Shown here piece by piece: positions 4,495 through 54,839 of a stretch of DNA of 64,000 nucleotides; the first letter of the stretch is position 1, and every line of letters begins with the position of its first letter. The translations under genes were made by a program, and so were the position numbers. This stretch comes from Dermatophagoides farinae (lineage: Eukaryota; Arthropoda; Arachnida; Sarcoptiformes; Pyroglyphidae), in assembly GCF_024713945.1 (NCBI RefSeq), contig NC_134683.1, positions 1,788,501 through 1,852,500 of the forward strand. The letters run 5' to 3'. The notes beneath the pieces were generated by a model. It worked only from the letters and a program-made list of their open reading frames with translations, was not told where the DNA came from and did no database searches.

Positions 4495-4881
4495 AAGAGA
4501 TCGACATTTCTGACCAATTCTTTACCATTTTCAATTGATGAACCTATTGTTAGTTTTTCTGGCATTTCAACGGAAATGGGTGGCAGCATCAAGCAAACTA
4601 AATCAATGATAATAATATGGCCAAATCGTGAAATGTATCAAGAAGTTGAACATCAAGGTGAATTAAATTTTTTCGAACTAATCGGCTGTCTTGGTGGTCA
4701 TGCCCATATATGGCTAGGTCTTTCAATCATTCAATTCTATGATGTTTTTGCTGATATTATATCACGGGCTAGATATAGATGGCAATTGATTGGACAAAAA
4801 TTTGGATCCATACGAACATTTTTTCAACATCATAAAAATCATTGGAAATCAATCACATCAAATTTCAATCGTCAACGATAG
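3273..4881 (+). CDS. DEG/ENaC-family (pickpocket-like) sodium channel subunit
   Basis: Two exons, 3273-4104 and 4178-4881, joined in frame, give 511 residues, a usual length for the family. Visible: a cytosolic N-terminus; TM1 near residues 24-48; the post-TM1 signature FPAFTIC; a cysteine-rich extracellular loop; and a C-terminal TM2 block, FFELIGCLGGHAHIWLGLS, which matches the LGG..GLWLG.S signature with a GLS selectivity-filter triplet. Known: these are trimeric amiloride-sensitive cation channels of the plasma membrane, gated by mechanical, acid, peptide or protease stimuli. The start at 3273 (MATN) is preferred over 3207 because it leads straight into the basic N-terminus. Oddity: a GAT repeat encodes about 12 Asp followed by Lys-Arg in the extracellular loop (about 4458-4500). 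The ligand or stimulus cannot be read from sequence. Confidence 0.88.
4458..4495 (+). repeat. Coding (GAT)n repeat giving poly-Asp
   Basis: About twelve consecutive GAT codons in the extracellular loop of the DEG/ENaC subunit, directly followed by AAG AGA (Lys-Arg). It belongs to the same repeat class that fills the non-coding DNA here, so length variation between individuals is likely. Confidence 0.9.
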
Positions 4882-6542
4882 ATGGCATGATGGTGATGAA
4901 AAAATGAAAAGTGAAATTCGATTCATCATCAGATAAATGGTAATCATATCATCATCATCAAAAAATTTATCATCACTCACATCAACAGAGACAAATAAAG
5001 ATTTTTTTTTCTTATGAATAAAAATTTTTTTGATAATTAATTATGGTTGTGTATGTGTACTCGACAAAAAAAAAGCATAGATCAATGTATCATTTGATTC
5101 ATATTTATTCATACAAACAGCTGCTGCTGCTTTTTTCAATAATAATAATGATGATGATTATTATTATTATTATAATCATTGATTGATGTCACATCTGACT
5201 ATTCGATTGATGCTGGTGGTGTTGATTAAATATTTCACCATAACAAAATTTTTGTAAAATAAAATTTCAATTCACTGGTGCAGTTTTTGTGTGTGTCTGT
5301 TTTTGTTTGTTTCATCATCATCATCATGATAAGTTTGAGAGTAATCAAATTAATTTTTTGAAAAAAAATATACAGGTATCATCATCATCATCATCATTAT
5401 CTGATCAATACATCTATTCAATCACGAGATATTCTTATTGCTAATTCTTTTTTTTTTCGTTAAAATTCGAATCAATCAAAACACACACCCGGCGTCATCA
5501 TCATGCACTAAAACGTTTATTTCAAAAAAAAAAAAAAAAAAAAAAAAAAACACAAGGACACTGAATACCTTTTTCATTTTCCTGTTATTTGCCTGTGTGT
5601 ATATTCCACGTTCTGACGTATTTTTTAATGATGCCAGAAAAAAAATTCAATTCGTTTGTTTTTATTCCACTGTGTGTGTGTGTGTATTCAAAGAAAAAAA
5701 CGATAAAATTTTTTGCACCAAACCATCGAATCGAATGTATTGATGATGTTGATCATTTTTTACCTAAAATAAAAGAAATGAAATGAACAGACGAATAAAT
5801 ATAAATTTTATTTTTATTGTTGTATTGATAGAATTGTCCATCAAGATTGCTGTGCACACAGTGGTTTTTGTTTTTATATCCAAAATCATTCTTCATTGTT
5901 GTCATAAAAATTCCTTTTTTTTATGACTTTTTTTTGGTATACCACCATTCATTTATTCACCAATTATTCATCATCATAATCCTACCTGGCGTGGACGAAT
6001 GATTGGACATAAATATAATATATATATGTCATTATCAGAATCCGGAATTCATAAAACAAAGATGATGATGATGATGATTGTATTTTCAATTCCCTCATGG
6101 TGTATGAAAACATTACACCATTAGACCGGAAATTTCTATGTTCATGCTTTTTTTACGTTCGAAATAAATCACTTTTTCATCGATTAATCAATCGATGATG
6201 ATGATGATGATGATGAAAATGTAACTTGATCAGAATATCAATATGTTTCGATTAAATATTTTTGTTTTTTGTTTTGAAGTTATATCCATGCTATATAAAC
6301 ATCGTATTTTGTCAACGTTTTTTTTTTGTTCTGCTTATAATCTTGTTTCTAGGTTATTGAGCCGGCTCGGACATTAAAAATTGTCATTCGTCATCACATG
6401 ATGATGATGATGATGATGATGATAACAGAATCTGGTCATTGAGCTTTTAGAAATTCTTGTGTCTATCTATGTGTGTGTGTGTGTGTTTTATATTGAAAAA
6501 ATGAGCAATTGTCCAAATAAACTGATGAAGAACTGGATTTAA

Positions 6543-17761: not shown

Positions 17762-18044
17762 TTCTTAACATCATCATCATCATCATCACGAATTAACATT
17801 ATTTTCATCATATGGTTTGGGATCTCATTGGTCGATGGCTTTTATAATGAATTCAAATTCAAATTGAATCCAATGCATATTTATACCAAGAATGATGAAA
17901 GCGGATTCTAATTGAATGCCAATGACCAAAATTACCTGCATATTATCATTATATTTTTATTTCTATTATTATTTTTATGGCGACATGGGATAATATACTT
18001 ACATTATTTAATAATTTAATAATAATAAATATAACCAGCCCGGT

Positions 18045-18061
18045 ACAGGCGCTTCGCGCCT
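18045..18061 (-). repeat. Helitron 3'-terminal hairpin
   Basis: Seven-base-pair perfect stem with a three-base loop, GC-rich, ending about 6 bases before the CTGG terminus. An outer six-base stem (CCAGCC with GGCTGG) encloses it. Helitrons characteristically have such a hairpin just inside the 3' end, where it is thought to signal the end of strand transfer. Confidence 0.8.
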
Positions 18062-18093
18062 GCCCCAGGCTGGCCCTGCGGGGCTGACTCCTG

Positions 18094-18340
18094 ACGGTCA
18101 ATATAGCTGGATACCCGCAGGGGTGGCGGCTGCGCCGCCCCCCCTGCTTGGTATCCAGCCAAAGGTTTCGATCCTTGACGGCCAATATAACTGGATACCC
18201 GCAGGGGTGGCGGCTGCGCCGCCCCCCCCTGCTTGGTATCCAGCCAAAGGTTTCGATCCTTGACGGTCAATATAACTGGATACCCGCAGGGGTGGCGGCT
18301 GCGCCGCCCCCCCTGCTTGGCATCCAGCCAAAGGTGTCAA
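18094..18340. repeat. Three-copy 84-85 bp GC-rich palindromic minisatellite
   Basis: Three tandem units of 84-85 bp (marked by GGCGGCTGCGCCGCC at 18125, 18209 and 18294), nearly identical apart from C-run length and single substitutions. Each unit holds an almost perfect 52-53 bp palindrome (18107-18158, 18191-18243, 18276-18327): outer arms CTGGATACC/GGTATCCAG, then CAGGGG/CCCCTG, then GGCGGC/GCCGCC around a TGC loop. Composition is far more GC-rich than anything else in the window. Open frames with repeated QPPPLRV text across it are translations of the repeat, not genes. It lies between the helicase remnant and the Helitron's 3' hairpin. Confidence 0.92.
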
Positions 18341-18479
18341 TTTTAACGCTTCGTGCTTGACGGTGGATTTTTATGCATGGCGTTTTGCTTTCGGTTTGGT
18401 ACCGCAGGGTCAGCCATCACTTGTGCATTGCATCGGATACCGTTGAAAAAATTGCGTACACCGAACAGCATAATTATTA

Positions 18480-18910
18480 TTGCTAATCGATAAGTTGAAG
18501 AAATACGATATTTTTGGTATAGATACTGTGGTCGTTGTTGATATTTTCCTCAATTTCCTGAACAAAAATCTTCAGATTATTAGGATTTTTGCAGCGGCAA
18601 AAAGCCACATAAATCATTCCATGTTGCAATACTGGTGTAGGAAGGTACACACTTATTTTTTCGAAAGATTGCCCTTAAAACATTAATTAATTGTAAGAGC
18701 AAAAGCCAATACGACAGGCAATCGTCCACGCACCAAATTGAATGGTAGCTTAGGATCTCGATCGTTTTGCTGCAAAATGAATCATAGCCTCCGTGTCAAT
18801 ATTCGAGCTTCAATGCTGCGTCTATTTACAAATAAACGCGTGCCATTGAGCAAACCACTCTGTGGTTCAATATTGCGGATGAACATTATAATCGATCCAA
18901 TGTTTAATCC
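18480..18910 (-). pseudogene. Helitron helicase C-terminal remnant
   Basis: Translating the minus strand in more than one frame gives the order of conserved SF1/Pif1-type helicase pieces known from Helitrons: GSIIMFIRNIEPQSGLLNG, then VNRRSIEARILT, then LPFNLVRGRLPVVLAFAL, then GQSFEKISVYLPTPVLQHG and a YVAF segment standing for the usual YVALSR. They are in the right order and spacing but are split by stops and at least two frame changes (one after the LAFALTIN block), so no helicase can be made. The N-terminal helicase motifs and the Rep domain are absent. Confidence 0.8.
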
Positions 18911-19817
18911 AAGTTAGTGTCTATAGATCCTATAGGATAACCATGTGGGTTCATCGCATGAAGACACTCAACATTGAATCTTAAATGCTCTTTTCTTTAT
19001 TTTAAATGAAAAAAGTTATCAGGTATTTTAGGTATAATCAGGTTAAATAACCGAAATAACTTACCAAACGATGAGTAGATCATAGATCACGGGAACAAAA
19101 ACAGAAAAAATCATTCCAATGAATGCAGTCTTCAGGCAAGATTTCATCATCAAATACACACTCACACAGACACACAAAATGAAAATCACGTGTGACACAT
19201 GTATTATCACAATAATCAATTCGAAAAATTCGAATTCGAACTCTTTCTATGTTCTATTGAATGACTGCACCATCTATTGGATGCAAAAGCTGCAGCAACG
19301 TGTGCTGAGCTAGAACAATGAAAAAAAGCTTTGTCAAAGCAACATACCACAGAATGCGTTTCTTTGGAAGCGACTTCTACTTCTGAGCTGGACGAACTGT
19401 TCAGCGGCATTCAAAAGTTTTCCCGCATGCTCAGACACACACACACAACATACACTGAGTAGCTCATACTGAATAGTTATGTTTGTACTGAAAATAAGCA
19501 AGAATGGCTGGCTCAGCTTCGCCGCATCAAATGCCAAGTTAATACACAGTGCCAGTACACAGTGCAAGCACTTGGCGAGTGTAAAAGTTGCAGTTACTCA
19601 CAAACGTTAGCCTCTTAAAGAGTAGATATAATCTAATTAATTTGACATTATTCGTAAAATTTACATTTCAAAAAAAAAAATCTGCAACTATTTTGTTTGG
19701 GATTGATGCTATTTGGTGTTGAAATAGTCGAACGGAAAACATGCTCATTTGTGCATTGTTGTTGTTGTTGTTGTTGTTGTGATTGAGTCATTTTTTTTCT
19801 AAATTCAATAGCTTAAA

Positions 19818-21628: not shown

Positions 21629-24104
21629 ATGATTCTTTCATTGATTGGATCGATAGGTTTAGTTAGCCTGTTGTTTATATTCAATGTATTTCTTCATTAT
21701 TATGAATTAGGTATGAATTTATCGATGCCGATGATGATGTTTGTTTGATTGAATACTTAATTCATTTCCATAGAACAACGAAATTGTCACAATGATGCTT
21801 GTAAAAGTTTTACAAATAAAATTATCGATTCAATCGATTATACTGTAAATCCATGTGATGATTTCTATCAATTTGTTTGTGGAAATTGGATTCGAAATAT
21901 CGAGCTACCACCAGAAGTTGATTCTATTGAACCTATGATTATGGTAAAAATAAATCTTAAACGACAACTTCGCAATGTATTAGTTAATGCTTGGGATATT
22001 GACAATAATCATATTAATCGAAAAATTATCAAATCTAATTCATGGGCCGTAAAATGGGCAATAAAACTTTATCATCTGTGCATGACTACTACAGTACCAA
22101 AAAATGCCAAGTTTTTACAAAAAAAGTTTTATCAAAAATGGTCAAAACTTGGATTACCACGCGTTTTAAATTGGCCAATTGTATTGGAAAAAAGATAAAA
22201 CAATTATTAATGAAAATTTTGCTATTGATTGGATTGAGATTTATGCAAATTTTTATCATGAATTTGGATTTGGTCCAATAATCGAATTTGACGTTGGTCC
22301 AATAGGATGGGATAAAGATTCAATCATTGTAAGTAATGAATGAATGAAAAAAATACATATAAATCTCATTGACATTAATTAATTTTAATCTGATTTTAGT
22401 TTGATTTTAGTAGATTTTTATCGGAAAGTTTACGTTATGAAGATGAAAATATTGATTATTTCTATAATCGACCTTATGAACTAATGAAAATGATTAAACA
22501 ATTTGATCCTTCAATTAACATATCGGATAAAGTTCTCCACGTAGCCATGATGGAAGTTGTATGGATGGAAAAATCAATCGCTCGACAGATTAATAATGAA
22601 TTTGGTGAAAATGTGAAAATACAATTGGATAGATTGTATCTAAGAACAAAGCCGGCGAATATGACAAATTTTTTAAATAAAATGTATAAATTTAGTCAAC
22701 AACTAGAACACGTTAATGTCAACAACATGAGTAATTATCAATGGAACGATAAAGATTATGTTGGAATTCAACAAAAATTACCTGCATATCATTCGATATT
22801 TGATAACATCGCTAAGAATCCTAAACATATTCTTTATAATTTTCTATGGATAAAAGCATTAGAATATACAATGGAAGAATTGTTGCCAAAATCAGCTGAC
22901 CAATGTTTTTATTTGATGTATGATGATAAATTCGAATTACAATTTGCATTAGCACGTATATGGATTGATTATTGGCTAAAATCTGGTTCAAAATTGAAAA
23001 CAGTTGAAATGGTCAATTATTTGAAACAGGCTACGATTGAAATAATAAAATCAAACGAATGGTTAGATGAACAAACCAAAAATCTTGTTATAGATAAAAT
23101 TCGTGCCATTGTTGATGAAGTTGCTTTTCCTGAATGGATTCTAGTTGATGAAGAACTAGATGCATTTTATGGAATGTTTGATTTGTTACATCACCAAATT
23201 CCGGATAATTATTTTGATGCATATGTTTTATTGAAACAAATTATTATTGCAAATATATTTCATCGTACTAAAGGCAGAACAAATTGGAAATTTAAGTAAG
23301 TAAATAAATTGATGATCTGAAATAATTTTAATGATTTGTTGTTGTTGTTGTTGTTGCTTTATAGTTTAATATCACCTATTAGCGTGAATGCAGCATATCA
23401 AAGCCTTAAGAATACAATCCGTAAGTAATGAAATTTTTTTTTTTTTTACAAATGATTGTTTGACATCCAATATTGTGTATGTGTTTTGATCATATATAGA
23501 TATTGCTGCGGCCATTCTGAATGCACCGGTATTTGATCCAGAATTACCATTTTATATCAATTATGGAATGTTAGGATTTATTATTGGACATGAAATTACA
23601 CATAGTTTAGATGAAACAGGTTTCAGTTACAATAAAGTTGGATTGAAAACAAATTGGTGGACAAATGAATCAATGGAAAAGTTTGAAAATCTAACCAAAT
23701 GTTTTGTACGTTTATATGATGATCATAATGAAGAATGGAAAGAATTATTCGATGGTTACAGAACATTAGGAGAGAATATTGCCGATAACGGTGGAATACG
23801 AATCGCATATCATGCATATCGATTACGATTGAAACAATTAAAACATATTGGTCGAACAGTGAATTTATTGCCCTGGTTATCCACGAATTTTACTATCGAT
23901 CAGATATTCTTCATTTCATTTGCTCGACTATTTTGTAAACAAGAAACCAATGAACATGCATATGAATTGGCAGAATATGATAGCCATTCACCACATAAAT
24001 ATCGTGTAAATGTTGTACTTGGAAATTTTGAACAATTTTCACAAAGTTTTCATTGTTCCAAAAATTCTACAATGAATTTTAATCAACGATGTATTATATG
24101 GTAA
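21629..24104 (+). CDS. M13-family zinc metallopeptidase, copy B (two apparent frame disruptions)
   Basis: Exons 21629-21710, 21774-22329, 22400-23295, 23365-23420 and 23500-24104. The short N-terminus is one hydrophobic anchor (MILSLIGSIGLVSLLFIF). It is followed by VNPCDDFYQFVCGNW of M13_N and, in the last exon, HEITHSLDE (HEITH at 23589-23603), GENIADNGG (Glu at 23772), DSHSPHKYR and a C-terminal CIIW. The zinc and catalytic residues are kept, though GF after HEITH is SL and NAFY reads NAAY. In exon 2 homology continues beyond a stop at 22196 only if one A of the run 22188-22193 is ignored. Reaching exon 3 in frame needs one more base ignored near 22319-22321. So this is either a decaying duplicate or a place with sequence errors. 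Clearly paralogous to copy C, 165 bp downstream. Confidence 0.75.
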
Positions 24105-27044: not shown

Positions 27045-30000
27045 TCAGTCATTTGTTGTGGTATTAGTCGATGATGATGATCCTGGTTTTATTATCTGAT
27101 AAGTAATGATATATTCTGTGGAAAGATTTTTTTTTTTTGGATTATTTGAAAGAATTTTAAAATAAACAACTATACCTGGATATGCTTGTTCACCACGATA
27201 GATGACATATTCTGGAAAAGATAGACCACCACCGCTTGGACGTCCTATAATTTTTTTTAAATTAAAAAATTAAAATTGTAAACAAAAATTAGTAAACACA
27301 TACCAATAATTGAATGATGTCCAGGAGGGGCGTGGGCTATTTTTAATGCACTAAACTGAAAAAATGATTTTCCCAAAATCGTACGACATAATAGCATCTG
27401 TCTTTTACATTGATAACATGAACGATCTTTATGCATTGGGCAACCACTACCACCACAAATACCGTAAACATATTGATTTGATTTAGAGCTATTTTCAGCG
27501 AAATAAATTCCTGCACCAAACATTCCACCAATATATGCATGACGTTCATCGAATCCTTTTTGTACGATGGAATTAATGAATGGCGATCCATGGAACAACA
27601 TTCTTTCATTAGCGAATCCATGATTTTCTTCACAAATCTCTTGACGACGATGTAGATATCGTTGCCATAATTTTAGATTAATCATTTTCTGTATACGAAA
27701 TATTCGATATCTAGTAAACACACCACCAGCTTGACCACCATCTTTATGTTCTCTAATAGTTGATTGCATTTCATCTTCAACAGCACGATATTCACGATCA
27801 TCGGATGATAATTGAATCAAAAACGTAGTCGTATGAATCATTGATATTCCAGGTGTGGGCGATGATGATGATAATGATGGTGAACCAGAACTACTATTAC
27901 TACTATTCAATAAAGATTGATAGTTATTGTTATTAGTTGAAGTTGAAGAAACAAATGAAGGAGATGCTGCTGGTAATGGTACAACCGTTCCACTTGGTGT
28001 CATCACAGTGATAGCATTAGCATTTGTAATGGCAGTTCCTAAAAATTGGTTACCATTCAATGCTTGTGTTAACGGTTCCAATTGATGATTGGCACGTACA
28101 ACCAAACCAGAACCATCAATTGTATCATATAATGTTGATGATGAGATCAATAATTTTTCTATACCTTTCAATATTCGATGTCGATGACCATAGGCAGTTA
28201 CACCGATTGCTTTCAATTCTTCATGACCCATTTCGGCTAAAATATCCATCGTAATATGTTCACACATTAATATGGGTGTTAAAAAATCTAGACCCAATGT
28301 TGATAAAAACATTGGTATAGTTATACTAGGTGGTATATTTGAGACTGGCAAATAATTGGTTAGCTTGTTGTTATTATTTGAAGCGGCGGAAGAATTGTTA
28401 TTGTTGTTGTTATTATTTGAAGCTGTTTGATGAGTTGAATTTTGATCTTTATTTGATTGTAAAGAATTTGATTGAATCGATTGCTGGACATCAGATGAAC
28501 CATCACCAGGTTGTGGATTTATTTTCGATATATTATCGGATGAATTATTATCAACAATCGATTGATGATGATGATCAACAGAAGTATCATCATTTTCATT
28601 ATTATTGTTTATTGTAAGAATATTTTCTGGACATCGATCACCATTTACATTATCAGCATTACGTTGTGATAGAAGCAATGCTAATGATGATGGTACAGAT
28701 TCATTATTCAATTGATTTACTTGTCTTGATGATGATGTTGTTGATACAGTGGATGATGATGATGATGGTAATAATGGCAATGATCCATCTATAAATGATT
28801 CATTCGATTGAATGGATAATGAAGAGAAAGTATCACCTATAGCAGCAGAAGCAGTGGTCATCGTATCACCAGAAGAATTGATCAAATTCTGATTATTACC
28901 AACTATCATCATCATTTGTCGAATCAATTGTTGCATTAAATCTGATTGTTGTATCATTGATGATGATGATGATTCCGTTTGTGATTGATTCGTAATGGAT
29001 TGTTTCTGATCACTACTATTGGCATTTGTCGTTGTTGTTGTCGTCGTCGTTATCATATGTTCAGATGATGGTTGAGAAGGATTCGTTATTGCTGAAGATA
29101 TGGTACTACCAGTAGCTGAAGTAGCCGTTGTAATTCCTAATGATGTTGAATACAATGGTGGTTCAAGTTGTGCATCCATCAATAAACATTTGACATCTTC
29201 GGCCGATGCTAGATCTAGTGCTGTTTGACCTTCATAATTTTTCATGGTAGGATCAGCACCATGTGCCAATAAAAGTGCACAAAGTTGTGTACGACCTTTT
29301 TGTGCAGCTTCATGTAATGGTGTAAATCCCCAACGATCAGTGGCATTGACATTGGTATCATGTTTGATCAATAATGCAGCAATATCTAAATGACCATAAC
29401 TTGCTGCATTATGTAATGGAATTAATCCACCTTTATCTGGTGCATTGACATCGGCACCTTTATCCAGCAAAAATTCGGCAACTTCAAAATTATTATAACC
29501 AGCAGCTAAATGTAATGGTGTTGAATTTCTACCTTGACTATCACGACAATTTACATTCTCGGCTGTAACTAATCGAATTAAACGTCCTAATTCACCTTTT
29601 TTAGCTGCATCTAAAATGGCAACATTGCCCAATAAGAGATCGGAAATTTCTACATCTTCCTGTTTAACTAGATCTAATGGTGTATCGCCATCACGATTTT
29701 TCTTTGTAACATCGGCACCATGTCTTAGTAATAATTTGACAATGTCAATTTTTCCTTTAGATGAAGCTTCATGTAAGGCAGTGTATTTCCATAAATCTGT
29801 AGCATTAACATTGGCACCTTTTTTCAATAATAATTCGGCAACTTCGAAATGTCCATAGCTACATGCATTATGTAATGGTACAAGACCACCTTTATCTTTA
29901 GCTCGAACATCGGCACCATGTTCAAGAAGATATTCAACAACATCAATTCGATTATAACCGGCAGCAAAATGTAACGGTGTTGATTGTCTACCATCAACAT

Positions 30001-32477
30001 CACGACAATTGACAAGATGTGGATATTTTGAAAGGATTGTTCGTACTAAATCTAATTCACCTTGTCGTGATGCTTCAAGAAGCTGATGTTCAGGATTGCC
30101 ACGTGATGTTAATCTATGTGAAGCGATCAATTTTTGTACCTGTTCAGTAGCAGCCATTTGTTCTGCAGTTAAACCATGTATATTGACTAACATTAAATCC
30201 GCTCCATACGATAGTAATGTTTGTACAGAACAAAGTTGTCCATTTCTTGAAGCACGATGTAAAGCTGTCTGTCCTAATGAATCGACAGCATTGATTTTGG
30301 CACCATGTTTCAATAATACTTCCATTAGATCAGTATAGCCACGATCAGAAGCCAAATGTAATGGTGTTAGAAATTTTCCATTTTTTTCATTAACTATTCC
30401 AGGTGATTTACGTATTAGTAGATCAATAATTTGTTTATGAAGTTTTGGTGTCATTTGTGGATTAGATATCGATTGACAATTGAGCGATACGGCTACATGT
30501 AGGGCTGTATTGCCAGTCAAAGGATGTTTAAATTGAATAGTTTCAGTATTGATGAATTTTTTTAATTTTGAAATATCCGTAGCGCTGATAATTGCATCGA
30601 AAAATTGATGACCACGATATTCTTTCATAATACGGTCCTGTAGATCTGGTGTTGGACAAATGTCTAGCACGGATTTATTATGACAATTAACTAATGTTGG
30701 ATCGGCACCATGTGCCAATAATAATGCACAAACTTCAACACGCATTTTGGCTGCAGCTTCATGTAACGGCGTGAATTGCCAATGATCTGATGCATTCACT
30801 TCGGCACCATGTTTGATGAGTAGTTCACAGACTTCAAAATGTCCATAACTACAAGCATTGTGCAATGGCACTAGACCACCTTTATCTTTTGCATGAACAT
30901 CACCACCATTTTTAAGTAAAATTTGAACAATTTTCAAACGATTATATCCGGCAGCCAAATGAAGCGGTGTCGAACGTCGTCCATCGGATGCATGACAATT
31001 AACATTTAATGGTGTCAACAATGATAAAACTTTTTCTTCATAACCATTACGAGCAGCTTCAAGAAGTTCGTGTTTACGATAATCACCAGTTAACACTGGT
31101 TTGACTAATGGTGAGGCCAATTCTAATGCAGTTTTGCTCTCCGAATTCGTTAACCGGGCATCGGCTCCTTTTTGCAATAGATAAAGACAAACTTCGAGTT
31201 TACCTTTAATGGCTGCTTCCATTAATGGTGTAAAATGCCAATTATCTTTGACATTTGGAACGGCACCATTTTTCAATAATAATTTTACAACTTCAATGTG
31301 ACCAAAACTACAGGCATTGTGCAAAGGTACTATAAATAGGAAAAGGTAATTAGAATTCAATGAATGAAAATCAAAAATAAAGAATCGATAATTATACCTA
31401 GACCACCATCATCTTTGGCATGAATATTAGCACCTTGTTGTATGAGAAAATCAACAACATCTAAACGACCAAAACCGGATGCAAAATGTAGTGGCTAATA
31501 ATTTGCGAAAAGAAAAATTAATAAAATTATATAAATGTGTGTAACAATAACAAAATTACCGTTGATCGTCCACCACCAGATGGATCACGAACATTAACAT
31601 TATTTGAATTGATTAATTTTTTTAATCGATTTAAATCACCAATTTTACAAGCTTGAAATATATCTTTTATTATCATAATTGATGCTGCTGTTGTTGCAGC
31701 CGTAGCTGTCGTTCCAAGATGGTGTACATCCAATGATGGACAAGATGATTGTGCAGGGGAATGTATTAATAATGTTGACGATGATGATGATGTTGATGGC
31801 TGTGATGATGGTGATGCTAATTTTGTTTTAGACGTACTATTTTGTTGCTGTGCATGATTATGATTAGGATGATAAATATTCAAAGGATTTGAAGATGATG
31901 ATAATGATGATGAAGAATAATCCATTATTAACGATGATGGTGTAGGATTGATCATATTGATCATTGAACTGATTGAAAATGGTGTAGAAGAAGAATGAGG
32001 ATGAGCAGATGAAATCAACACCTGTTGCCCATTATGATGATGATTTTCCGGAATAGATGATAATAATGGAGCCTGTTGTTGAGTTATGGTTGTTGATGTA
32101 GTAGTTGATGATGATGGTGATAACGAGGTTTGTGTTGTTATTGGCATCAAAGAATGTTGATGATGATTTGAATCAGTCGATATTGACAGTGGTGTTTGTG
32201 AATGCTGTTGTAGTTGTTGTTGTTTATTATTTCGTTGATATAACGATGATGATGGACTGTAAAGCAATGATTGGTGGCCATTATTATTAATGGAAGAAAT
32301 GGTCGATATTGTTGATGTAGACAATGTGGAACATGTTGTTGATGATGAAGATTGTAATGGATGATTAATGCCAGTGGCCGTTGTAGTTGTTGTTATTGTT
32401 GTTGTTGTAGTTGCAGCCGATGAAACAATAGACGATGATGATAAATTCGGTTGTATAGGATAAGATGAATGAAACAT
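27045..32477 (-). CDS. TNKS: Tankyrase (poly-ADP-ribose polymerase with ankyrin clusters and SAM domain)
   Basis: Five exons on the minus strand (32477-31560, 31494-31398, 31329-27304, 27244-27176, 27115-27045) join in frame to 1726 residues. Order: Ser/Thr/Gln/His-rich N-terminus (about 270 residues); ankyrin-repeat clusters with the repeated [10 protein letters not shown]...[11 protein letters not shown] signature; a 300-residue Ser/Asn/Thr-rich linker; a SAM domain (about nt 28310-28140); and the PARP catalytic domain with FHGSP, a GIYFAE block, the zinc-binding [12 protein letters not shown] motif unique to tankyrases, and the C-terminal [16 protein letters not shown]. The His-Tyr-Glu triad is complete. 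Known: it PARylates axin, telomere and spindle proteins; SAM mediates polymerisation. The long linker exceeds that of vertebrate tankyrases. It runs divergently from the zinc-finger gene (965 bp apart). Confidence 0.97.
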
Positions 32478-34804: not shown

Positions 34805-36175
34805 TTATGAAAAATCAATCTTTGATCGATCATCTTGTTCAGATAATTTTGTTGGACGCAAACCATGTTCGATATTTTGTATGAATTTTCGAAACAAATT
34901 TAATGATGGCGCCAATGATGTTCGATATGCTATGCTAGTTGTAATGGTACAATCATCTGTTGTTTTTTCTGTATCTTGTGTTATTGAAATTTTATCCATT
35001 TCTTCGATCAATGTTGAAAGTGTTGGCACTGCAAATGGATCAAATTGATCCAATTTTTCAAAATCTATTGGCACACATATACGACCGGTTTTCGGATGTA
35101 TTGAAAATGGTACCTTAAGTAAATGATTAAGACCACGTGTAACATTTATATCTAAACGTGGATAACAAAACTGAAATTTGATTTCTTCAAGAAAATATCT
35201 ATGTCGAATTCGATTATTACTAAGCAAATGATTTGCACCTTTAGATGAATAGAATTTTGATGCTAGAGAACAAATCATTTTCCATCGATGTAAAGATGTT
35301 TTACATTTTGTTTCATTTGGATTCAATAATGTTTGTAGAATTTCTTCACGCAATGGCTTATCAAGACAAAGATCTGCAACCATCTTTATCTGTTCTTTAG
35401 TGGCAAGAAAATCTTGTCTATTTATCATTAGTTCTTCAAAATATTTATCAATAATATGAATCGAACGTGCCAATGATGGATGGCAGCCTTTTAATCCATC
35501 GATTTCTACTTTTTTTGCTTTGAATTGACCACCATCAAAAATATTAATAAAACATGCAATTGCATCACGACCATCCGATCCTAAACGTCGAGCACGTTCA
35601 TCTGCCACCCAACAATGAATACCACGACGACCGGAATAAACCCATAGAATATTTTTGAAACCCAAATCTTCACGTAGATATGCTTCAAGTATGCGAGCAG
35701 CTATCACCATAAACATCCAACATTTTTGACAAATTTCAGCACCTTTACAACATGTACGAATATCATCATAATCGGTCATATCGATATCGAATACTAATTC
35801 TTTAGATTGTGGTTGAAATGACATCAATTTAATTTTACGAGATTCACAAGGTCGTGAACTATAAACGGCACCAATATCGATTTTAGTAGGCATTCGAGCC
35901 AGTATACATTTACGCATTTCAGCTAATGATTCGAATGAATTAAATCGAAGATAAATGTCGCCATTCAGGGTGAATGAGAATTCTCTTCGTGAAAAATAAT
36001 CTTTTTCGACTTTGGAAAGAAAAAAAAATTGTTACAATATGAAAAAAAATATCTTAAAATCATATATATACTAACCATTGGCATATGATAACCATTGATA
36101 AAATAGACTATATGGAAATAGATGTGCATAATAAGCACCAATATGATAGGATAGATCTTTATTTTGATCGGACAT
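34805..36175 (-). CDS. PRIM1: DNA primase catalytic (small) subunit
   Basis: Two exons on the minus strand, 36175-36076 and 36009-34805, give 434 residues, the usual length. The first exon encodes YYAHLFPYSLFYQWLSY and joins VEKDYFSRREFSFTL, then KIDIGAVYSSRP; ELVFDIDMTDYDD holds the metal-binding aspartates, SGRRGIHCW the nucleotide-binding signature, and CCKGAEICQKC a structural zinc site. Known: with PRIM2 and DNA polymerase alpha it makes the RNA primers for Okazaki fragments in the nucleus. Nothing is missing from the catalytic core; the C-terminal tail after residue ~390 is variable. It is head-to-head with the Pol I subunit gene, 353 bp between start codons, suggesting shared control. 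Confidence 0.96.
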
Positions 36176-38684: not shown

Positions 38685-39218
38685 TTATTTACGTGTGGAG
38701 CGCTTAATCTTCTATATTCGAAGCAGCTGGTACTCCACTTGTTGCAAAAATTATGAGTTTAGAATCTCTTGATGGCGATTCTAAATGCACCTGGATTGCA
38801 AACCAACAAAATTGATTGCCAAGGTACACCGACCATCGTTTTATTATTCGAACCAGGTTTCCCAAAATTCGAATGATAAAGGTCAACCCCCTTTTCAAAG
38901 AACCCATGCGCGTGCAAACCATACCATAAAAATAAACATTCGAATAAAATGATTACAGTTTAATTAATTAATTTCAGAACTTTTAATTTATTTCTGGTTA
39001 CAAAAAGCATTATTCTTAATTAATTCAATAATTTTTCATTGAATAAATTTTTCATTTCTATATAAATTATGTTGAAAAAAAATTCATGATTAGAGCTAAT
39101 TTGTGAAAAAAATTGAAATTTTTTTATCGGTTAAAAATCATTGATTATTTTCGTGACAAAGAATCCGAGGTTCCAGAATCGAATTGAATTGCACAACAAC
39201 AACTACAACAGCTTCAGC
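38685..39218. other. Intergenic stretch with an unexplained complex island
   Basis: Bases 38690-38935 are less AT-rich and free of simple repeats. Short open frames run on both strands, each interrupted, and I recognise none of them. It may be a decayed gene or transposon piece. From 38936 to 39218 the sequence is ordinary AT-rich spacer, probably including the promoter of the next small gene. Confidence 0.4.
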
Positions 39219-54386: not shown

Positions 54387-54839
54387 AAAAAAAAGCTGAA
54401 AAAAATCATCTTGTGTTTTCATCTGTTTACACGTTGATTAAGAGGTGTGTTTTTGTGGCAAAAGTATTGCTAGAATCAGATTCTGGATCAATAACAATAA
54501 CAACAAATACAAGTACAAAAGAAAATTGAATTTTCTTGATTCTTGAAACTTGTTTACCCTTCATTATTATTATTATTATTGTTTATAAATTTGATCCATA
54601 AAATAAAGAAAAAAAAAGCTGAAAAAAAATCATCTTGTGTTTTCATCTGTTTACACGTTGATTAAGAGGTGTGTTTTTGTGGCAAAAGTATTGCTAGAAT
54701 CAGATTCTGGATCAATAACAATAACAACAAATACAAGTACAAAAGAAAATTGAATTTTCTTGATTCTTGAAACTTGTTTACCCTTCATTATTATTATTAT
54801 TATTATTATTGTTTATAAATTGATCCATATAATAAGGAA
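54387..54839. repeat. Two-copy tandem duplication, unit about 222 bp
   Basis: Copy 1 (54387-54608) and copy 2 (54609-54839) are almost identical: the same order of AAAGCTGAAAAAA, GTTTACACGTTGATTAAGAG, GGATCAATAACAATAACAAC and GTTTATAAAT...GATCCATA. Differences are mainly the ATT-repeat length (5 against 7 units), one or two bases in A or T runs and a few changes at the right end. Such likeness means a recent event or an assembly artefact. Confidence 0.93.

Follow-up and report, generated by a model that had tools for sequence, protein, structure and literature searches.

Three GC-rich, nearly palindromic units stand in tandem at one locus of the allergen mite Dermatophagoides farinae, just inside the 3' end of a Helitron. 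We asked what these units are, how they are distributed and whether they may serve the element that carries them. The locus lies in a window of 64,000 nucleotides, the whole stretch of DNA analysed, and we searched the 62.4-Mb D. farinae assembly (22 contigs) for its relatives. Four DNA searches gave at least 63 merged loci; the window and 62 others were read, and 8 short loci were then added. Unit numbers were taken from a profile search, so that degenerate units are included, and partial units of at least 40 bp were counted in the numbers per locus.

Palindromic units in the window

TRF reported a tandem array at 18092-18335 with a period of 85, 2.9 copies and 96% matches. The profile search delimited three units, with start-to-start distances of 84 and 85:

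18258..18341, minus strand: unit 1, 5'-most in the element; palindrome at 18276-18327 (52 bp)
18173..18257, minus strand: unit 2; palindrome at 18191-18243 (53 bp)
18089..18172, minus strand: unit 3 in element order, adjoining the tip; palindrome at 18106-18159 (54 bp)

The GC content of 18001-19000 is 45%; the other 63 kilobases of the window range from 25 to 38%, so no other exceeds 40%. The sequence-only reading had described near-identical, palindromic, GC-rich tandem units, and the TRF matches, the palindromes of 52-54 bp and the GC content bear this description out. Each palindrome consists of an outer stem CTGGATACC/GGTATCCAG, a middle stem GCAGG/CCTGC and an inner stem CGGC/GCCG, with a G-run opposite a C-rich stretch and a loop that reads GCA on the element-sense strand. 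The one plus-strand mismatch in the palindrome of unit 1 is a G-T pair on the minus (element-sense) strand.

We compared the folds of the three units with those of dinucleotide shuffles. The z values were -6.7, -5.5 and -5.3 on the minus (element-sense) strand and -6.4, -5.2 and -3.5 on the plus strand. None of 200 shuffles matched the real fold in any of the six cases. For the third unit, the best plus-strand fold lacked the outer stem, and the excess over shuffles was larger on the element-sense strand. The 396-nt 3' region folded as a whole gave a z of -13.5. Rfam returned no family at the units; its single match in the window was a U11 spliceosomal RNA gene elsewhere (38691-38896, minus strand, 51.8 bits). 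The window also contains a tankyrase-like frame with ankyrin repeats, SAM and PARP (27257-31360, minus strand), a DNA primase small subunit (34805-35917, minus strand), an M13 peptidase domain in a plus-strand frame at 22484-23299, and a recent tandem duplication at 54387-54804 (224-bp unit, 1.9 copies, 99% alike).

The Helitron that carries the units

The array belongs to a Helitron copy whose parts are listed below.

18035..19626, minus strand: non-autonomous Helitron copy, 1,592 bp, with 5' TC at 19626 and 3' CTGG at 18035
18480..18979, minus strand: stretch resembling the 3' end of the RepHel frame on contig C8; the frame end maps to 18480
18342..18365, minus strand: spacer before the array; its counterpart in the relative L023 holds CAGGCACGAAGCG
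18035..18088, minus strand: 3' terminal module; the same tip pattern occurs in 63 places
18068-18073 / 18035-18040, minus strand: terminal outer stem CCAGCC/GGCTGG, reaching the last base
18046..18062, minus strand: terminal inner hairpin CAGGCGC-GAA-GCGCCTG (element sense), 11 nt from the end

We call the window copy non-autonomous because it has no open frame of 120 codons or more. A host A precedes its 5' TC and a host T follows its 3' CTGG, and it is 80.7% alike to the C8 copy over a 1,038-column alignment spanning 18032-18979. Across the family, all 3' tips read end in CTGG, in agreement with the CTRR end of canonical Helitrons, and T follows 59 of 60 tips. The start motif TCTA, which was picked from the first copies compared, opens 19 of the 22 long loci with a tip (the C8 copy, whose 5' end was not located, is excluded from this count); A precedes TC in 17 of these 19, the exceptions being L021 and L035. 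Judged from these insertion flanks, the target would lie between A and T, and not in the T-rich or TT sites of Helentron/HINE elements. The terminal hairpin CAGGCGCGAAGCGCCTG stands 11 nt from the element end, or 12 in the TTCTC type, and its outer stem extends to the last base or the last but one. In the L023 spacer, 12 of the 13 letters of CAGGCACGAAGCG match the 5' arm and loop of the terminal hairpin, a score reached by 5 of 2000 shuffles; this likeness is only suggestive, because it was first spotted by eye and then scored.

A genome search for coding copies with PF14214 gave 5 matches, of which two lie in long open frames. In the C8 copy, an open frame spans 1,479 codons, and 3 units and then the tip lie downstream. 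Its first 1,057 codons match PF14214 (Helitron_like_N) at 188.5 bits and PF05970 at 32.9 bits; that is, the Helitron-like N domain and PIF1 helicase of a RepHel protein are found in the coding copies. The protein contains PHAHIIVW, which we take to be HUH-like, and YLFKY. Its closest protein record is from D. farinae and is 100% identical over 35% of the query. The second long-frame copy, on C7, carries 2 units and a tip about 3.1 kb downstream of the Rep domain (512 bases between its parts L072 and L083 fall outside the reading), and L072 is 96.4% alike to the C8 copy. Because both long-frame copies carry units, the units are part of the RepHel-encoding element and not a passenger of one dead lineage. 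The three remaining matches (L085-L087) are short or broken, with no unit in the 3.2-3.4 kb read for each, and a link of the units to these loci was rejected. Its ends, target and protein place the family among the canonical Helitrons.

Distribution of units and tips

A pattern scan of the contigs found the exact tip 63 times and the exact unit core 122 times, and the backward controls 0 times. Units lay directly upstream of 56 of the 63 exact-pattern tips. These comprise 53 of the 60 tips that were read and three others (C3:759628, C4:786430 and C6:2640081), each with exact unit cores at most 500 bp on its 5' side. Among the 53 tips, ten had one unit, 27 had two, 13 had three and 3 had four. 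The distance from the last unit core to the tip was 104-108 bp in 51 of the 53 loci; the two exceptions measured 94 and 98 bp. Conversely, 86 of 100 listed unit cores (122 in all) lay at most 500 bp 5' of an exact tip on the same strand. The position just inside the Helitron 3' end, claimed beforehand from the window, therefore holds across the genome, and the adverse outcome, units mostly away from Helitron ends, was not seen. Chance or an assembly artefact was rejected as a source of the units, which occur at dozens of loci on contigs C1-C10, and so was a viral carrier, since one pattern scan of viral contigs gave 0 matches. The loci outside the common arrangement were as follows.

L040, L044, L054, L093: 6 cores with a Helitron body or a damaged tip
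L092: 1 ambiguous core, with part of a tip present
L046, L070, L094, L095: 7 cores alone, as far as the flanks were read (about 900 bp upstream at L046 and L070; 361 bp in all at L092-L095)
L024, L081, L042, L088, L089, L090, L091: the seven tips without units

L024 and L081 are 100% alike over 411 bp; since the identity runs beyond the tip, they are probably one event copied together with its surroundings. L042 is 223 bp long and has TC and CTGG ends, A/T flanks and zero units. L089 appears to be a 200-bp mini-element, also without units, in which both ends are apparently present. It consists of host-like DNA with a 5' TCTACTCTTTAAG start and, at the 3' end, little beyond the last 26-29 nt; the terminal hairpin lacks most of its 5' arm. 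Because L042 and probably L089 have both ends and no units, units are not essential for insertion. Read by eye, two copies of a 21-bp host sequence enclose about 23 nt of tip in L091, and L088 has filler and tip between two copies of a sequence of about 24 bp. Canonical Helitrons produce no target duplication; therefore, these orphan tips look like abortive or repaired insertions.

Counting inserts within palindromes only, we found foreign DNA at three loci. At L045, 468 bp separate the two arms of one unit, and this insert includes 92 antisense codons with a match to aldehyde dehydrogenase (PF00171, 43.7 bits). At L055, the 3' arm contains 66 bp of AT-rich DNA. L093 has three GTTAG repeats beside the loop, which we take to be telomere-like. 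Such (GTTAG)n or (GGTTA)n repeats occur both inside the L093 palindrome and in the upstream flank of another Helitron copy, L042, and possibly reflect break repair with telomere repeats.

Variation in unit number and conservation of pairing

L023 (on C1) and L043 (on C10) do not differ in the 379 bp on the 5' side of the array and are 99.4% alike over 1,763 bp, yet they have 3 and 4 units, respectively. Among pairs of copies with at least 99% identity, the unit number was the same in 23 of 33 and different in 10 of 33, and at 97-99% identity it was the same in 18 of 75; the pairs are not independent. The number stayed at two in L033, L034, L056, L064 and L074. Copies separated by only a handful of substitutions in 379 bp can clearly differ in unit number.

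We then scored pairing within the stems. The 119 full-length units gave 68 distinct ones, from which 5 unparsed and 4 damaged units were removed; 18 pairs, all outside the G-run and its opposite stretch, were scored in each of the remaining 59. The 1,062 cells comprised 1,025 Watson-Crick, 35 G-T, 1 A-C and 1 other. That is, 1,060 cells were Watson-Crick or G-T, a result reached by 4 of 2000 partner shuffles, in which A-C averaged 4.1 against the 1 observed. With the four damaged units included, the counts were 1,082 Watson-Crick, 40 G-T, 1 A-C and 11 other. Sliding the outer stem by one or two bases lowered the paired fraction from 99.6% to 19-43%. Three compensatory changes were found, passing through A-T/G-T/G-C at two pairs and C-G/T-G/T-A at one. 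In all three, the 3' arm matches the changed 5' arm, as fold-back template switching predicts. Arm matching may thus be kept by selection or by template-switch self-correction, and either would require that the hairpin forms. Outside the scored pairs, 33 of 63 parsed units have CCACA opposite the G-run, which sets A against G, so the palindrome is often imperfect in mid-stem.

A G-T pair in the sense strand corresponds to A-C in its complement; therefore, the excess of G-T points to folding of the element's plus strand, as DNA or RNA. This hint of strand is weak, because the changes in scored pairs number five G-T kinds to one A-C kind (with a sixth G-T kind in the stretch left unscored) and the matching transition classes in spacers of the same units stand at 7:7.

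Function of the units

The units stand between the element body and the terminal hairpin in coding and non-coding copies. We tentatively favor the reading that they are a hairpin-forming subterminal minisatellite of this Helitron family that assists recognition of the 3' end. The earlier suggestion of an expanded termination signal is plausible as a putative role. In the related Helraiser system, a 3' hairpin 11 nt from the end is a non-essential terminator, and without it the flanking cassette was transferred in at least 36% of events compared with approximately 11.7% (PMC4778049); Helraiser junctions form on the plus strand (PMC5876387). It is because of this analogy that we place weight on plus-strand hairpins. 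Starting at the 5' TC end, RepHel would peel off or copy the plus strand, and each unit would fold in the single strand. Hairpins stacked before the terminal hairpin might slow or hold the complex, favoring cleavage at the terminal CTGG over read-through. The same folding would make replication slip, so that units are gained and lost, and breaks near the hairpin centres might sometimes trap filler DNA. Insertion without units at L042 and probably L089 counts against a role in end recognition, and hairpin template switching can keep the arms matched without selection.

There is a close rival, which we also regard as possible: the units may be a functionless minisatellite, driven by hairpin slippage and hitch-hiking on the element, with fold-back template switching keeping the arms matched. 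The rapid change of unit number, the confinement of compensations to the 3' arm, the frequent mid-stem mismatch and the insertions with both ends and zero units all agree with it, and tandem repeats are known passengers of HINE elements, as described in the accessible parts of two articles (PMC7492417, PMC4067079). The retention of units at 56 of 63 tips and in both long RepHel-frame copies, their fixed position and the scarcity of A-C pairs speak for a function, although each is compatible with this rival.

An action at the RNA level, in which sense transcripts fold at the units and are thereby stabilised, ended or hidden from silencing, is improbable. It would suit the tolerance of G-U, like that of G-T, and the position of the units about 170 bp past the RepHel stop codon (in the C8 copy the frame ends near 4797 and the first unit starts at 4964). 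However, the window copy, which has no frame of 120 codons or more, also keeps its units, as do elements that at 372-1,905 bp cannot accommodate RepHel, and the units match no Rfam family.

Origin of the units

It is very improbable that a palindromic element or host sequence was captured by one Helitron lineage and then amplified. The GC content of the units is unlike that of the host, and 7 of 100 listed cores, at 4 loci, are solitary within the flanks that were read. However, these solo pieces look like fragments: L046, L070 and L095 stop partway through a unit; the first two open with GCGTTAAAATTGACACC, a sequence derived from the element, and their starts fall within one base of the same element position, directly after the GAA of the hairpin-like spacer. 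A free-standing element was rejected, as no abundant solo form was found among the 100 listed cores. Since both long-frame copies carry units, the suggestion of a separate element captured by the Helitron now appears unlikely; an old capture could still be their ultimate source.

The least probable origin of all is from degenerate terminal-hairpin copies multiplied by repeated read-through: a GGCTGG or GACTGG lies near the start of the units, the array is preceded by a spacer that resembles the hairpin's 5' arm and L090 looks like a deletion between spacer and terminal hairpin, yet the alignment of the unit with the terminal module does not exceed chance (1404 of 2000 unit shuffles score at least as well, and 340 of 2000 against the reverse complement). 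The words GGCTGG and CAGGGG/CCCCTG, pointed out in the sequence-only reading as shared, do occur in both, but no homology was detectable that would make the units amplified hairpin copies.

Comparison with known systems and implications

As far as the accessible parts of the cited articles go, the family most resembles the Helibat1/Helraiser type, with RepHel, TC and CTRR ends, a target between A and T, and a hairpin 11 nt from the 3' end (PMC4778049, PMC5876387). Helraiser has a single 19-bp palindrome, whereas the D. farinae family has a two-tier terminal hairpin preceded by 1-4 palindromes of 52-54 bp. Tandem repeats inside Helitron-like elements are already known, as are stem-loop models for tandem repeat formation (PMC8268682). 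The non-autonomous Helentrons HINE/DINE-1, including those of Metaseiulus occidentalis, share short tandem arrays and a palindrome near the 3' end. They differ in their subterminal inverted repeats and T-rich or TT targets; moreover, their arrays lie between two modules and not against the 3' hairpin, and in the accessible text their repeat units are not described as palindromic. HelitronY4_CE of Caenorhabditis elegans also has tandem repeats, and in its 40-base unit we read a short palindrome, TTCTGGAATGTTCCAGAA (PMC4039745); in the accessible text, however, its short AT-rich units are discussed as intronic motifs, with no long GC-rich hairpins described (PMC4039745). We found no description of palindromic units stacked against a terminal hairpin in the open-licence PubMed Central literature, and the earlier statement that there is no described counterpart stands within that literature. 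In the accessible parts of the D. farinae assembly paper, the word helitron appears 0 times in the main text, and a table gives DNA transposons as 0.09% of the genome (PMC11074847); the published repeat annotation of this mite seems to lack the family.

More speculatively, and in our view unlikely, the array could be an adjustable multi-hairpin brake in which unit number tunes read-through and gene capture, with breakage at hairpin centres as a second route of capture. If so, with each plus-strand hairpin a rolling-circle transposon would become more likely to stop at its own end, and the aldehyde dehydrogenase fragment at L045 and the telomere-like repeats at L093 would be examples of the second route. 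The near-identical copies that differ in hairpin number form a natural series for measuring the effect of a hairpin. The family bears on 3'-end recognition by Helitrons and on the reasons why this often fails and host genes are carried along.
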